Below are positions 548 to 8,599 of a DNA stretch of 30,524 bases, in pieces (positions within the stretch are counted from its first letter, which is position 1; each line of letters opens with the position of its first letter). Source of the DNA: a virus; IMG/VR virus record IMGVR_UViG_3300032163_000073, positions 1 to 30,524 of that record. One strand, written 5' to 3'. Both the position numbers and the translations under genes were made by a program. The notes beneath the pieces were generated by a model, which was not told where the DNA came from, searched no databases, and saw nothing but the letters and a program-made list of their open reading frames with translations.

Positions 548-938
548 AGATATCAAGGTTGGGGATAAGGTGCTTAGGCAGGTTCATGTTGTTGATGGTT
601 TTGTAGAATCAACTAGGTTTTTTATTCCTGCGATAGTAGAGAAAACTACAGCGACTCGTTTAGAGGTTGATGGAAGAATATATACAAAAAAAGATGGTCG
701 TGAGTATGGCGAATTAGGGTATTCATCATATTTACTTTTGCAATATTCAAAAGATCGTGATCAATCAGACGATTATCGTGAATTTTCCTCTTTAGTTAAA
801 GCGCGATTGTCATCAAAAGATAAGCTTTCATCTTTAATGAAAAAGATAAACAAGCAGCAAACAAGCATTGAAGATCTAAACGAAATTATTAATTTTTGTG
901 AGTCTATGTCGTCTCGTATTAATGGAGGTGATAAATGA
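540..938 (+). CDS. Hypothetical phage protein, about 132 aa
   Basis: The GTG at 540 has GAAGG about nine bases upstream and gives the start MFKDIKVGDKVLR. The ATG at 531 abuts the same GAAGG and is too close to it to be well placed. The N-terminal third reads like a small beta-barrel (VGDKVLRQVHVVDGF). A central part is charged, and residues 85-130 are helical and Lys/Ser-rich. No catalytic motif is seen. It overlaps the next gene by 4 nt (ATGA), so the two are co-translated. Confidence 0.65.
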   Translation: MFKDIKVGDKVLRQVHVVDGFVESTRFFIPAIVEKTTATRLEVDGRIYTKKDGREYGELGYSSYLLLQYSKDRDQSDDYREFSSLVKARLSSKDKLSSLMKKINKQQTSIEDLNEIINFCESMSSRINGGDK

Positions 939-1225
939 ACCTATTCATGCAAAAACTAGCAGAGCTAGAAAACCAATACAATATTGATAAGCAGGCATTG
1001 CGGGAGGCAAGGCAAGAGATAATAAAGGCTGAATCGTTTGCAGCTAAACATCAAGCAAGTGCGGTGGTGTGTGTACACAATGGTACGGCAAAGGTTTGGG
1101 TGTCGGTTGGGCGTGATTTCTTTGTAATGGTGGGTAGAAAAAGGCGTGAGTTGCCAGGGGAGAGTATTGCTGGCAAGGATGTTTTTATTGTTGATGGTGT
1201 AAAGGTTATTCTAAATGATTACTAA
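935..1225 (+). CDS. Hypothetical phage protein, 96 aa
   Basis: Starts in an ATGA overlap with the preceding gene. Residues 1-40 form a charged helix (QKLAELENQYNIDKQALREA). Residues 45-96 are beta-rich with a basic turn (GRKRRELPG). The Ala/Glu/Lys-rich helix suggests an oligomerising segment. Function unknown; it is a middle member of a tightly packed small-gene cassette. Confidence 0.65.
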   Translation: MNLFMQKLAELENQYNIDKQALREARQEIIKAESFAAKHQASAVVCVHNGTAKVWVSVGRDFFVMVGRKRRELPGESIAGKDVFIVDGVKVILNDY

Positions 1226-1295
1226 AAACTGGCACGCCATCCTATGCGGGTTTGTGATTGGTGTTTGCTGGGTTTTGGAGGTGTTGACAAGATGA
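1215..1295 (+). CDS. Tiny membrane peptide, 26 aa
   Basis: Starts MITKNWHAILCGFVIGVCWV and holds one predicted membrane helix over most of its length. It overlaps the gene before it by 11 nt and the gene after it by ATGA, so coupling is likely. Too short for a family call. Support is the coupled overlaps and the clean hydrophobic pattern. Confidence 0.5.
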   Translation: MITKNWHAILCGFVIGVCWVLEVLTR

Positions 1296-1498
1296 GTGAT
1301 ACCCAACCATGCCACATAACCCTAGCCATCCGCCAATGCAAAGAATTCATCCGAGCAGTTGAGGAGATGGAAGCGCTTAATAGCAAGCCTAAACGCCCAT
1401 CCTTAGCGTGGGAAAAGTTAATAGCTAAAGGGCGTGTACGGCGCTATGCAGGTGCTTTGATCAATCGTTTATCATTAGTTAGGAGTGATAATGGATAG
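1292..1498 (+). CDS. Hypothetical phage protein, 68 aa
   Basis: The ATG at 1292 sits in an ATGA overlap with the membrane peptide and has GGAGG upstream. A start at 1244 would add an unlikely N-terminus. The protein begins MSDTQPCHITLAIRQCKEFI and is mostly helical with a basic C-terminal half (RVRRYAGALINRL). No known domain is recognised. It overlaps the broken gene that follows. Confidence 0.6.
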   Translation: MSDTQPCHITLAIRQCKEFIRAVEEMEALNSKPKRPSLAWEKLIAKGRVRRYAGALINRLSLVRSDNG

Positions 1499-1621
1499 GC
1501 AACAGAGTTATTAAAACGCATTCAGCCACACATTAATGATTGGGATTTCCCAGTTGGTTTAACCGATGATGTTGATGCGTTCTTTTGGGTGGCGATTACT
1601 CGATTCTTGAAAGGAGTATAA
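1491..1621 (+). pseudogene. Frameshifted small phage gene
   Basis: The ATG at 1491 (overlapping the previous gene) opens a frame that stops after seven codons. The +1 frame then reads ATELLKRIQPHINDWDFPVG onward through FFWVAITRFLKGV to a stop at 1621, a convincing protein sequence. Restoring one A near 1497 would give MDKATELLKR in one frame. I therefore read one gene of about 43 aa with a one-base deletion in an A-run, either real or a sequencing error. Confidence 0.6.
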
Positions 1622-1670
1622 AAATCTCCCTACTGGTGGTAAATATTGTGTTTATACTAAGATATAGTGC

Positions 1671-1699
1671 TTGCACATTTTTATAAAATGTATTAATAT
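1671..1699 (+). promoter_or_regulatory. Sigma70 promoter of the non-coding region
   Basis: -35 TTGCAC (1671-1676), 17-nt spacer rich in A/T with TTTTTATAAAA, -10 TAATAT (1694-1699). Same layout as the other cassette promoters. Transcription would start near 1706, at the left edge of the structured RNA region, with no credible ORF for 900 nt. Confidence 0.7.
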
Positions 1700-2114
1700 T
1701 TACTTATTGAAGCAGACGACACAGTCCTATTTTTCTCCTGCGAATTTCAAAATCCACAATAATTTTCATAAGTAGGTACAGCTAGGTGGTTGTGTTGAGT
1801 AGTATGATCTAGCTGTGACTCATAGTGTATGGTCGTGTGGCGGCGATACTCATTGTGGAATGCCGGATTTGCTGGCCTAAGCAGCATTTAGTCATAAGCA
1901 TGTGTAGATGTGTTTATGACTAACTAGCTGGTTGGTGAAAGTGAAATAATTCAATGATATTTAAACGAATCCTTGTTTGGCTGCTTACAAGGTAAGTTTT
2001 GAAGATTAGCAATCTTCTCCTTATACAAAGTCTTGACAAGACGATAAGCCAAAAAGTCAGGGTGCTGGTTGTTGGGATCCAGCACCAACATAAATGATTA
2101 TTATTCATAGTGGT

Positions 2115-2167
2115 TATTTATGTTGGTTTATATATCATATTTATTCTAGGGAATATATGCAGGTTAA
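2115..2167 (+). repeat. 53-bp direct repeat, copy 1
   Basis: Matches 2565-2617 at 52 of 53 positions (difference at 2156/2606), exactly 450 bp apart. It includes a duplicate of the XRE gene's ribosome site and first codons (ATGCAGGTTAA), which here open a 13-codon dead-end frame. The left end forms an 11-bp inverted repeat with 2085-2095. Confidence 0.9.
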
Positions 2168-2411
2168 GCCCGTTGACGGTAGCCATACCGAGAGTTAGCG
2201 CACGATTACCACAAGCGGACACGTAAGGACGGTAAGTCGTGCAGTGGGAGGGTTGTTTAACCCTATACAGCTCGGAAAGACGAGCACCAACAATTTGAAT
2301 GATGACTGCGGGTTGAAATAATATCGCACAAATAGGGTTTGAATCTGAAGGTGACGGAAGCGGTTAGTCGTCTGTGTTGGTGTATATTATCTATGCAGTG
2401 CATAGATCAAC

Positions 2412-2487
2412 ACACAGGTAGCTTATATAGGTAAAGCGTGGGGACGTATAATCCTTGGTAAAGCTGGTTCGAGTCCGGCCCTGTGTG
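2412..2487 (+). tRNA. tRNA-like gene, atypical anticodon arm
   Basis: Cloverleaf elements: acceptor ACACAGG (2412-2418) with CCTGTGT (2480-2486), discriminator G2487; TA at 8-9; D stem GCTT/AAGC (2421-2424/2434-2437) with GG in the loop; T stem GCTGG/CCGGC (2463-2467/2475-2479) with loop TTCGAGT. The anticodon arm (2439-2457) is 19 nt instead of 17. It folds as six pairs with loop CGTATAA, giving TAT at the anticodon place but G where U33 should be. No CCA is encoded. It may be a degenerate or unusual tRNA (Ile-UAU by position), or a tRNA mimic within the large RNA. Confidence 0.6.
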
Positions 2488-2564
2488 GTTTTAGTTAGAA
2501 TAAATATTGAATCGGCAGCACGGAATGACGTGCAGTCTAAGCATATCCGCCAATACGGATTCAA

Positions 2565-2617
2565 TATTTATGTTGGTTTATATATCATATTTATTCTAGG
2601 GAATACATGCAGGTTAA
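2565..2617 (+). repeat. 53-bp direct repeat, copy 2
   Basis: Second copy of 2115-2167. It spans the leader, ribosome site and first codons of the XRE gene at 2607. Its left part is the 3' arm of the 14-bp inverted repeat 2500-2513/2558-2571. Confidence 0.9.
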
Positions 2618-2840
2618 AGAAGAGTGGACTAAGCGCAAGTTTATCGAGATGAATCGGGTTTACCTTGGCTTGTCTCAGAAAAAACTTGCAGAATTAGCTG
2701 GAACGAGTCAGATATCGATTAGTCATCAAGAGCGTGGGCATCGTCCGCCTCGTGATGCGACGATTGATGCGTTAAGGAATGCTGGTGATACGTTAGAACC
2801 ATTGGCATTTTTGGAAGAATATGGTAGTATAATGCTTTAA
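2607..2840 (+). CDS. XRE/Cro-family helix-turn-helix regulator, 77 aa
   Basis: Residues about 14-60 match an HTH_3 fold: YLGLSQKKLAELAGTSQISI is helix 2, turn and recognition helix, followed by SHQERGHRPP. Such small single-domain proteins bind operators as Cro or as antirepressor-type regulators. The ATG at 2607 has CTAGGG five bases upstream. Its leader and first codons are duplicated at 2115-2167. It lies directly downstream of the structured RNA region and may be transcribed with it. It is a candidate to bind the palindromes in the cassette promoters, which is inference only. Confidence 0.8.
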   Translation: MQVKEEWTKRKFIEMNRVYLGLSQKKLAELAGTSQISISHQERGHRPPRDATIDALRNAGDTLEPLAFLEEYGSIML

Positions 2841-2855
2841 ATGGAGTTTTAAATT

Positions 2856-2936
2856 ATGGCAGGTGGCAACGGTCGTGAACGTCCAGTAGAACAAAAACGC
2901 TCTACACAACCAACTAAAGTACCTACTAAAAAATAG
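2856..2936 (+). CDS. Small basic peptide, 26 aa
   Basis: MAGGNGRERPVEQKRSTQPT followed by a Lys-rich end. Preceded by GGAG at 2843-2846, and lies between the XRE gene and a membrane protein gene with short gaps. It has no hydrophobic core, so it is disordered or nucleic-acid binding. Support is the ribosome site and packing only. Confidence 0.5.
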   Translation: MAGGNGRERPVEQKRSTQPTKVPTKK

Positions 2937-2943
2937 GTGATTC

Positions 2944-3375
2944 ATGTTAAGCGTTGCTTTTTTATTGTTTGCAATTTTCTTGAAAAATGACAGGAGAAAA
3001 GCAGCGCTTATTCTAGGTTTTGGTAATATTTTATTTTATGTATTATCTTTTTACGTAAAAAGCGACACTTTATATTATTTTGTTGCATCATTTTTAGATG
3101 CTTTTTTTGCGTTTATAGTGAGTGAATACCGTACAAAAACCGCCATTCATTTGGCCGTTGTGTCGCTATGCAGTTGTGTAATAAATGGTATAGGTTACAT
3201 ATGGTACTTGGCTTATATGCCTGCAATGCCATACAATATCACCATTACTTTTATTTTGGTGATTCAAATGGCAATTTTGCTAAGGGATGGCATATATGAT
3301 ACAGGATGCGCTTTCTGCAGTTTATATGATAGTTTGGATATGCGTCATCGTGTACGGGGTTCTTTTAAAGGTTAA
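2944..3375 (+). CDS. Multi-pass membrane protein, 143 aa
   Basis: Begins MLSVAFLLFAIFLKN, with about five hydrophobic segments (roughly residues 1-15, 21-40, 44-64, 70-97 and 98-118). The C-terminus (about 25 residues) is polar and Arg-rich. The ATG at 2944 has AGGTGA just upstream. No enzymatic motif is visible. The place just before a holin-like protein and the terminase suggests an inner-membrane accessory protein (antiholin or exclusion type), but this is a guess. Confidence 0.6.
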   Translation: MLSVAFLLFAIFLKNDRRKAALILGFGNILFYVLSFYVKSDTLYYFVASFLDAFFAFIVSEYRTKTAIHLAVVSLCSCVINGIGYIWYLAYMPAMPYNITITFILVIQMAILLRDGIYDTGCAFCSLYDSLDMRHRVRGSFKG

Positions 3376-3386
3376 ACGGTGCAATC

Positions 3387-3644
3387 ATGAACGAACACGG
3401 AAACAACGCATCAGAAGTATTAGCACTAGCCGCAAATCAACCGAAGATTACCGGGACAATTAGCGCATTAGTTACATCGATTGGATTGAGTAATATCAAT
3501 GTAGTTTTAGGCATGGTAAGCACTTTTATAGGTTTGCTAATCGGTATTTATACGATCTATCGCATGTGGCAGTCTTCTAAGATTGCCGAAAAAGATATGC
3601 GAATCAAAGACATAGAGATTGCAAAGCTGGAAAAAGAACAATGA
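3387..3644 (+). CDS. Small membrane protein, holin-like, 85 aa
   Basis: One clear transmembrane helix at about residues 36-58 (VVLGMVSTFIGLLIGIYTIY) is followed by a charged, coiled-coil-like tail (KDMRIKDIEIAKLEKEQ). The N-terminal part is polar. This size and layout fit some phage holins that lie just upstream of terminase genes. A second holin candidate lies at 6572-6826, so this one may be an antiholin or an unrelated membrane protein. A terminator starts at its stop codon. Confidence 0.55.
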   Translation: MNEHGNNASEVLALAANQPKITGTISALVTSIGLSNINVVLGMVSTFIGLLIGIYTIYRMWQSSKIAEKDMRIKDIEIAKLEKEQ

Positions 3645-3667
3645 ACCGGCATGGTCCGGTTTTTTTT
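3644..3667 (+). terminator. Hairpin terminator or attenuator before terS
   Basis: AACCGG (3644-3649) pairs with CCGGTT (3656-3661), followed by T-run 3660-3667. It touches the preceding stop and lies immediately before the terS ribosome site AGGAAG, so it may partly limit packaging gene expression. Confidence 0.7.
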
Positions 3668-3677
3668 AGGAAGATAA

Positions 3678-4067
3678 ATGGCTGAGCCAAATAAGCGTCC
3701 TGTTGGTAGACCTCGTGCTATCGATTCTCCAGAAACATTTGATTCTCTGGTTGATGGATATTTTGATCTGTGCCGACAAAACAACCATCCGATTCTACTT
3801 ACTGGAATGATCCTATCTCTAGGACTGGTAAGCAAAGAAGCGTTCTATAATTACGAAACATATCCAGAATTTTCTGACTCTGTAAAACGTGCTCGCATGT
3901 TGGTAGAGATGGAATATGAAAAAAGATTGAACACCGCCTCTGCTGTTGCCGCTCCAATCTTCGCCCTAAAGAACTTTGGATGGAAGGATAAACAAGAGGT
4001 TGCATTGACAACTACCGACAACTTCCAAGAGTACATGCTAAGCCGTGGACAACAAGAGACTGATTGA
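3678..4067 (+). CDS. terS: Terminase small subunit
   Basis: 129 aa, the usual size for a small terminase of the gp3/DNA-packaging type. The small subunit recognises phage DNA and loads the large subunit to start packaging. The basic N-terminus NKRPVGRPRAIDSP is a typical AT-hook-like start. The middle holds helix-turn-helix-like helices (LSLGLVSKEAFYNYETYP). The C-terminal APIFALKNFGWKDKQEV is the hallmark seen in this family, and TerL follows directly. The stop lies inside the TerL frame. Family call by motif and position. Confidence 0.85.
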   Translation: MAEPNKRPVGRPRAIDSPETFDSLVDGYFDLCRQNNHPILLTGMILSLGLVSKEAFYNYETYPEFSDSVKRARMLVEMEYEKRLNTASAVAAPIFALKNFGWKDKQEVALTTTDNFQEYMLSRGQQETD

Positions 4068-5619
4068 AGAAGCTGATATCCTTCTGGAAGCTATTAGGCT
4101 AAACCCGAATGATATTGCAGCATGGCGAGCCGGAATTACTAACAAGTGGTTCCGGCTCAATACTTTGTACAACATCAAAGATAAGTCAGGTAATGAGGTG
4201 CAGTTTAGGCCAAACTTTGCCCAACGAGCATTTTTTGCAGATAGACATAATAACGATATTGTGCTAAAGGCTAGACAACTTGGTTTTACTACCTTCGCCA
4301 TGCTTGATGGGCTTGATGATTGCCTTTTTATCCCTAATTTCTCTTCTGGCTGTATTGCCCATTCCTTTGATTCTGCAAAAGATATCTACCGAAGCAAAAT
4401 AAAGTTTGCTTATCAAAAAATAAATCATGCATTTGTCAAGTTTGTAACAGGCGGGCGTTTTGTGCTTCCTGTTCCGGTAAATGATAAAAACACTGGGTTT
4501 GTATTTAGCAATGGGTCAAGCATACGCGTAGGTACTGGATATCGAGGCGATACGCTTCAATCACTGCACATATCAGAATTTGGCAAGATATGCAAGAAGT
4601 ATCCAGAAAAGGCAAAGGAGATTGTAACTGGCGCTCTTGAGTCGGTAGGCATTGGCAATCGAATTACCATTGAAAGCACCGCAGAAGGTCGGGAAGGTTA
4701 TTTCTACGAGTATGCAGAGGCAGCAAGGATCTTAAAAGAGAAGAGCAAAAAGCCTAACTCAATGCAATATCAATTCCATTTTTATTCATGGTGGCAAGAT
4801 CCTGCTTATACGATGGATGAAGAGCAGGATATACCTGAACGTCTATCTGCTTACTTTGCAAAGCTTGAATCAAAGCATGGCATTGCATTAACTGCCGGAC
4901 AGAAGAAGTGGTACGCAAGCAAGGAGGCAAAGCTAGGCAGTGAGATGACTAGAGAGTACCCAAGCACACCAGAAGAGGCGTTCTTGCAGGCCATTGAAGG
5001 GGCTTATTACTCGCAGCAATTCAGTAAGATCTATAAAGATGGCCGTATCTGTGTATTGCCTGATAATGATCACCTTGCCGTGCATACATGCTGGGATATC
5101 GGTATCGGGGATAGTACGGCGATCTGGTTCTATCGCATGGTAGGCGATGCGCCCCATATTCTTGATTACTATGAAAACTCAGGCGAGTCTATGGGCCATT
5201 ACATCAAGATAATTGAGGATAAGGGCATTGCTAATGGCTGGAAGTTTGGCAATCATACTGCCCCGCATGATATCAATAATCGTGAGTTTGGTAGCAAAGG
5301 TAAGACGCGCAAGGATCTAGCGGCGGAAGGCGTGGAATACATGGGTAAAACGTATGCAATCAAGTTTCAGGTAGCGCCTAAGCTTTCTATCATGGACGGA
5401 ATAGAGGCGGCTAGGTTGTTGCTTGCTAAGTGCGTTTTCGATGAAGAGAAGACGACAGAGGGGGTGAAGGTTCTAGAGCATTACAGAAAGGAATGGAACG
5501 ATAAGCTAGGATGCTGGCGAGATAACCCGCTACATGACTGGTCGTCACACGGTGCTGATGCGTTCCGTTATCTGGCAGTAGTAGAGAATAAGCGTAAGTC
5601 AGGTGGATTGTTCACCTAA
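4045..5619 (+). CDS. terL: Terminase large subunit
   Basis: 524 aa ATPase and nuclease motor that pumps DNA into the prohead and cuts it. It starts at GTG 4045, overlapping terS by 23 nt. Residues 74-83 (LKARQLGFTT) are the deviant Walker A of TerL proteins. LQSLHISEFG (171-180) is Walker B with the catalytic Glu, and ITIESTAEG (about 207-215) is the coupling motif. The C-terminal nuclease shows acidic residues in DIGIGDST (351-358), PHDINNREFG (around 409) and HDWSSHGADAFRY near the end. Length is normal and the frame is intact. A strong bidirectional terminator follows. Confidence 0.95.
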   Translation: MDNKRLIEEADILLEAIRLNPNDIAAWRAGITNKWFRLNTLYNIKDKSGNEVQFRPNFAQRAFFADRHNNDIVLKARQLGFTTFAMLDGLDDCLFIPNFSSGCIAHSFDSAKDIYRSKIKFAYQKINHAFVKFVTGGRFVLPVPVNDKNTGFVFSNGSSIRVGTGYRGDTLQSLHISEFGKICKKYPEKAKEIVTGALESVGIGNRITIESTAEGREGYFYEYAEAARILKEKSKKPNSMQYQFHFYSWWQDPAYTMDEEQDIPERLSAYFAKLESKHGIALTAGQKKWYASKEAKLGSEMTREYPSTPEEAFLQAIEGAYYSQQFSKIYKDGRICVLPDNDHLAVHTCWDIGIGDSTAIWFYRMVGDAPHILDYYENSGESMGHYIKIIEDKGIANGWKFGNHTAPHDINNREFGSKGKTRKDLAAEGVEYMGKTYAIKFQVAPKLSIMDGIEAARLLLAKCVFDEEKTTEGVKVLEHYRKEWNDKLGCWRDNPLHDWSSHGADAFRYLAVVENKRKSGGLFT

Positions 5620-8550: not shown

Positions 8551-8579
8551 AGTATAGATAAGTGTATAAAATTATGCAA
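8551..8579 (-). promoter_or_regulatory. Promoter of the minus-strand lysis operon
   Basis: Read on -: TTGCAT (8579-8574), 17 nt, TATACT (8556-8551). The spacer begins with the same 14 bases as the promoter at 98-126, and the leader is also shared. It drives the 220-aa gene and probably the coupled genes down to 5651. Confidence 0.8.
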
Positions 8580-8599
8580 GCACTGTCTTTGCATTTAGT

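Follow-up and report, generated by a model that had tools for sequence, protein, structure and literature searches.

A conserved structured non-coding region of a phage genome carries a covarying GAAAGA-loop hairpin that is widespread among phages

What occupies nearly 900 nucleotides of phage DNA that appear to hold no protein gene? The question is raised by positions 1671-2571 of the 30,524-nt stretch analyzed here (positions 1 to 30,524 of IMG/VR virus record IMGVR_UViG_3300032163_000073; hereafter the window), which a first-pass annotation had read as a large structured RNA with an embedded tRNA-like fold and its own promoter, either a divergent relative of the large phage RNAs GOLLD and ROOL or a new class. 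We find that the non-coding region 1671-2571 is structured and conserved, and that a short hairpin within it (2270-2285), which the annotation did not pick up, belongs to a real, covarying and very widespread phage RNA element.

We name this the GAAAGA-hairpin element and define it as UGACAG-stem-GGAAAGAC-stem'-CA. Window positions 2270-2286 show the loop GGAAAGAC, a stem of at least five pairs and the A that follows, and the surrounding core contains CAGCTCGGAAAGACGAGC. The exact 18-mer of the window hairpin occurs in at least 119 viral contig stretches, compared with one for a loop-scrambled control and none for a reversed control, and these bare copies are mostly preceded by UGA and followed by A. 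When all hairpins with six-base loops in the fetched loci are compared, GAAAGA is far ahead of the other loops, largely by selection; about ten other stems appeared unasked. A scan that left three stem positions per side free and excluded the commonest stem gave 117 distinct copies, of which 115 were fully paired at the free positions, against an expectation of about 6%. Across 20 distinct hairpin sequences 97% of cells pair, as against at most 32% with the partner slid, two-sided changes number 21 (5.0 in shuffles) and covariation reaches 0.588 (0.126 in shuffles). Of 21 named phage records, 10 contain the pattern and none contains its reversed form; most of these records had been chosen as matches to related queries, so that the count gives no estimate of frequency. 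The hairpin appears to be present in hundreds of unrelated phages and to have gone without a name so far: it corresponds to no Rfam family, and no description was found in a literature search, most subscription journals and preprints lying outside its reach. As a lead only, we note that CGGAAAGAC also occurs in 23S rRNA at 2054-2068 (PMC12887398).

Of 267 hairpins, 43 are followed within 15 nt, nearly always after 3-7 nt, by a unit that has a T-arm and an acceptor of 7 pairs, compared with 12 of 2670 random places. Several of these units are real tRNAs (L014, L025, L049), and many have no normal anticodon arm, their length being 58-60 nt or, where a large insert is present, 95-229 nt. At one locus (L189, 1-430, - strand) a GAAAGA hairpin is followed after 5 nt by a 229-nt tRNA-like unit that encodes its CCA and has a large insert where the anticodon arm would be. 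The element also lies in long gene-free stretches of Medea1, P7641, Alexa, BUCT708, Pokken and ESP2949-1, the last being a sparsely annotated record with some open frames in its gap. Klebsiella phage UPM 2146 (Taipeivirus; L286) has more than 3 kb (906-4107) without an annotated gene, and this stretch contains tRNA-like pieces and long stems. No protein family shared downstream of the hairpin was found; Pseudomonas copies followed by GCACCTATTCAGGG, which can also be read as an open frame (GRQLGKTSAPIQGL), were excluded from the flank count.

It could be argued that an element which many genomes carry at non-homologous positions, frequently close to tRNA genes, is a DNA site whose hairpin would serve replication, recombination or integration by forming in single-stranded DNA; tRNA genes are common integration sites. 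We regard this as highly improbable, since reading frames near the hairpin lie on the same strand in 157 cases and on the opposite strand in 43 (67 undecided), G-U pairs are retained in the stems, the spacing to tRNA 5' ends is nearly fixed, and tandem copies occur within an actinobacterial transfer-messenger RNA (tmRNA).

The features of the region are collected in Table 1. The absence of a credible protein gene between 1622 and 2606, as first read, was borne out: the open reading frames there are short and mostly on the opposite strand or overlapping the next gene, and 1622-1665 is what is left of a gene of which relatives have a longer version. At the place of window 1610-1665 relatives carry some 480 nt extra that include a small gene, and of this gene the window retains the final codons only (LPTGGKYCVYTKI). 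Pattern scans found related IMG/VR contigs (L003-L005 and L007-L010), which have in common 1610-1922 (88-91% identity) and/or 2159-2506 (at least 94%), together with downstream genes that are 96-98% identical; blastn added Iodobacter phage PhiPLPE, where the match falls inside an unannotated gap. A plasmid search gave no matches. The relatives retain 1655-1922 and/or 2159-2506 without an open frame, and in the 5' domain 1- and 2-base indels disrupt any frame. Near its own copy, PhiPLPE (L001) has at 1196-1410 a long run of GGC-GAC/TAC/TCC triplets, reading as glycine plus aspartate, tyrosine or serine.

The 930-nt stretch folds better than its shuffles (z -6.9, 20 shuffles), with values of -1.4 to -3.8 for sub-regions on the + strand; folding energy alone is nevertheless weak evidence, because one coding control segment reaches z -4.0. 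Both enclosing stems reported at first, 2285-2292/2375-2382 and 2500-2513/2558-2571, are indeed perfect. The 5' domain, compared in three sequences, has two compensatory pairs in favor and several broken pairs against, which we take as mild support for a structure there. A covariance model of the core matched little beyond the GAAAGA hairpin in other phages, and the core (2159-2269) therefore seems lineage-specific. The module at 1923-2158, which is lineage-specific, reaches z -3.8 on either strand, and its 18-mer probe was found in no other viral contig. The 3' hairpin domain is present in L003, L004, L009 and L010 and absent from L005.

Two features had been overlooked at first, the unshared segment 1923-2158 and a 53-nt direct repeat whose copies flank the RNA core and the tRNA-like fold. 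The repeat is likely to be a recombination scar around GCAGGTTAA, which is present both in the core and at the start of the HTH gene. Separately, ACCAACATAAAT at 2084-2095 is able to pair with either copy. The repeat, the swapped middle, the gene remnant at 1622-1665 and a low-scoring tRNA with G33 could together be taken to depict a decaying tRNA island, with an old tRNA, gene remnants and recombination scars left functionless. That is, however, a quite improbable account of a region in which conservation of 2159-2500 equals that of neighboring genes, the core is retained in PhiPLPE, a genome otherwise little alike, and the hairpin is retained across phages.

Table 1. Features of the region and of related records (window positions unless a record is named).
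Feature	Position	Strand	Basis or remark
Promoter, phage cassette type	1671-1699	+	TTGCAC 1671-1676, spacer 17, TAATAT 1694-1699
5' structured domain with hairpins, including a 13-bp hairpin 1888-1900/1911-1923	1706-1922	+	88-91% identity to relatives; frame-breaking indels
Lineage-specific module: three-way-junction-like fold 1971-2062, hairpin 2084-2127	1923-2158	+	Other sequence there in all relatives
53-nt direct repeat, copy 1	2115-2167	+	98% identical to 2565-2617
Conserved core GCAGGTTAAGCCCGTNGACGGTAGCC...GTGCAGTGGGAGGGTTNTTTAANCCTATACA	2159-2269	+	About 90% to PhiPLPE, higher to contigs
GAAAGA-loop hairpin GCUCG-GAAAGA-CGAGC	2270-2285	+	Widespread phage element
Domain closed by ACCAACA 2286-2292 / TGTTGGT 2375-2381, directly 3' of the hairpin	2286-2381	+	PhiPLPE version has 16 bp
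tRNA-like fold, Ile(TAT) by ARAGORN, G33 instead of U33	2411-2488	+	ARAGORN, Rfam tRNA model
3' hairpin domain, 14-bp stem 2500-2513/2558-2571 plus inner stem	2500-2571	+	z -4.2
53-nt direct repeat, copy 2; leader and start of HTH gene	2565-2617	+	Repeat match
Unannotated tmRNA-like modules, missed by ARAGORN	L294 (Cronobacter phage ESP2949-1) 1201-1460; L285 (Escherichia phage HC6) ~1770-1930; L286 (Klebsiella phage UPM 2146) ~1790-1930; L282

The promoter of the phage's own cassette type, first placed at 1671, is conserved in six related contigs and resembles cassettes elsewhere in the window (CTTGCATAATTTTATA..TATACT at 97-126 on the + strand and 8551-8580 on the - strand, where chance would give none); the call rests on this conservation and likeness, because a generic sigma-70 scan of the window did not list the site. 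The region 1671-2571 may be transcribed as one RNA of about 900 nt. The HTH, holin and terminase genes lie downstream of 2571, the HTH gene starting at 2607, and no terminator was found at 2571 in the window. Because the region is modular, with a lineage-specific middle at 1923-2158 and no terminator at its end, another possibility is that it forms a long leader of the HTH-holin-terminase operon and is processed into fragments. As a regulatory leader, the nascent RNA and its hairpin would control the operon in cis by affecting RNA polymerase, the stability of the RNA or its translation, for instance through put-like antitermination or processing. The operon does follow without an intervening terminator, the hairpin of many phages is found 20-40 nt upstream of a start codon on its own strand, and in phiEt88 it sits between the Q antiterminator gene and the holin gene. 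We nonetheless consider this reading doubtful, as the PhiPLPE copy closes with an intrinsic terminator, the genes downstream of the hairpin share no kind, the pattern is absent from HK022, a phage with known put sites, and the tRNA-like units would be left unexplained.

The tRNA-like fold seen at first at 2412-2487 was recovered as tRNA-Ile(TAT) by ARAGORN, with a low score (37.4 bits) against the Rfam tRNA model; both programs find the full cloverleaf, with a 7-bp acceptor and D, anticodon and T arms. The anticodon varies among relatives, being Ile(TAT) in some and Arg(TCT) in others, such as L005, and both types carry G33. Since G33, found in the window and in L005, replaces the U33 of functional tRNAs, ordinary decoding by this fold is argued against. 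Phage tRNA-Ile(TAT) and tRNA-Arg(TCT) are matched in cloverleaf call and anticodon, whereas the weak score, G33 and the embedding in a conserved structured region set the window fold apart. Both anticodons read codons of low frequency in many bacteria.

We found no support for the kinship with GOLLD or ROOL that the first-pass annotation had raised. A scan at E up to 10 with all Rfam 15 models gave no match to either family in window 1500-2750 or in PhiPLPE, and the GOLLD model RF02032 had zero matches in four related or motif-bearing records. When the entire window, the region by itself, PhiPLPE and 15 related loci were scanned, only tRNAs rose above the Rfam cut-offs, and tRNA is the sole Rfam family matching the region, which otherwise stands outside known families. 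GOLLD and ROOL are large phage RNAs of modular build, one part being conserved and another variable, and have an embedded tRNA (PMC12286853). The window region is like GOLLD in being a large phage RNA with conserved and variable parts, a tRNA in or near it and late-gene surroundings, and like ROOL in lying near tRNAs; it differs from both in leaving their models unmatched. A scaffold of the GOLLD/ROOL style, many copies of which would come together as a cage or oligomer when infection is late and might enclose the tRNA, would be consistent with the size, the modular conserved and variable build, the embedded tRNA-like fold and the phage origin (PMC12286853). We judge it improbable, as neither sequence nor model matches these families and the widespread part is a 22-nt hairpin that is also present without any large RNA. 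The region is a real structured one, detectable neither as a GOLLD nor as a ROOL member, and it belongs to a large set of phage RNAs with tRNA or tmRNA features that apparently has no name.

The tmRNA features come from other phages. Downstream of the hairpin, ESP2949-1 has the frame GCAAACGATGATCTGATGTTGATGGCGGCGTAA (ANDDLMLMAA), and HC6 and UPM 2146 have tag frames ANDDVVLMAA and ANDNTFLAVA, with upstream letters nearly identical to those of ESP2949-1. The start and end of these tag frames are tmRNA-like; Rfam gives the ESP2949-1 module E 0.0023 for permuted (RF04321) and E 0.0003 for beta tmRNA (RF01850), both under the curated scores. The window differs in having no detected tag frame and no tmRNA match. 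In a cellular setting, the tmRNA of an Actinomycetota metagenome-assembled genome (L041, 6429-6823) has tandem GAAAGA-type hairpins after the tag. The tag of that tmRNA may end in AKGDFALAA.

A second recurrent neighbor is a long stem. Helices of 16-22 uninterrupted pairs directly follow the hairpin in PhiPLPE, L061, L101, L133, L159 and L209, the window having a 7-bp version (2286-2292/2375-2381). Helices of at least 12 pairs are not commoner after the hairpin than in controls (48 of 267 versus 134 of 801), and only the long uninterrupted ones stand out. Enteric phages carry a matching element, CACAACAGG...GTTGTGGTGAATGCGCAGGCTGATGCGC...GCCGGAGATCAGCACCGGCCACCA, the first part of which (CACAACAGGTAAGAGC...TGCTCTTTCCGTTGTG) lies in lambda (NC_001416 44786-44870, in L296) between tR' and S, a stretch for which we know of no role. 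The lambda long-stem element is common to 108 phage records, lytic phages of Klebsiella and Escherichia among them, and in L248 and L095 it comes after the GAAAGA hairpin. The lambda late leader resembles the window in having a long-stem domain between promoter and holin, and differs from it in that the GAAAGA hairpin pattern was not found in lambda. That the window domain is homologous to the lambda element is our conjecture, from position and closing sequence.

We suggest the following reading. Its first part, that the locus is a conserved structured non-coding region with a widespread covarying hairpin element, is very probably right; the mechanism proposed with it is a tentative one, and the two taken together fall a little short of an even chance. 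The promoter at 1671 would drive a transcript into the HTH-holin-terminase operon, and tRNA-processing enzymes, RNase P among others, would cleave it at the tRNA-like fold, releasing a stable folded RNA that comprises the 5' domain, the core, the hairpin and the ACCAACA domain. The GAAAGA hairpin would serve as a binding handle for a factor that every bacterium has, in all likelihood a part of the machinery for RNA processing or translation; we propose such a shared factor because the hairpin lies 3-7 nt before tRNA-like units and mostly 20-40 nt before start codons, and because it is employed by phages of unrelated type and host phylum. The RNA would then act on or through translation during infection, like tRNA or tmRNA mimics. 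It is also an evenly balanced proposition that the hairpin is an undescribed element in phages of several phyla, marking a hidden class of tRNA- and tmRNA-mimic RNAs (tRNA-like units without a working anticodon arm, lambda-like extended stems, tagged permuted-tmRNA modules) that is recruited by a pan-bacterial factor and of which the window RNA is a member.

Several observations sit uneasily with this reading. The window hairpin is followed by the long-stem domain, and the tRNA-like fold is 126 nt away. Many hairpins precede ordinary, varied genes, with the start codon mostly 20-40 nt on, and a single role may not suit every copy. For the window RNA there is no Rfam tmRNA match, no ARAGORN tmRNA call and no tag-like frame nearby. 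Its core (2159-2269) is too invariant for covariation testing, and the stem of its own hairpin is invariant among its relatives, compensation having been shown for the element across phages. The hairpin is preceded by AUACA where UGACA (or UGGCA) is usual, ACA being retained; AUACA recurs in three others of the 267 copies, all from relatives of the window except L011.

We note, finally, what the element may mean for phage biology. Compensatory mutations have preserved this hairpin in phages that infect Proteobacteria, Bacteroidetes, Clostridia and others, and its binding partner is probably something that these hosts have in common. Identifying its partner would help to explain hundreds of unannotated phage RNAs and may bear on the tR'-S stretch of lambda, and the hairpin itself offers a small, mutable handle, open to tests in laboratory phages, on the role of large phage RNAs in the neighborhood of tRNA genes.
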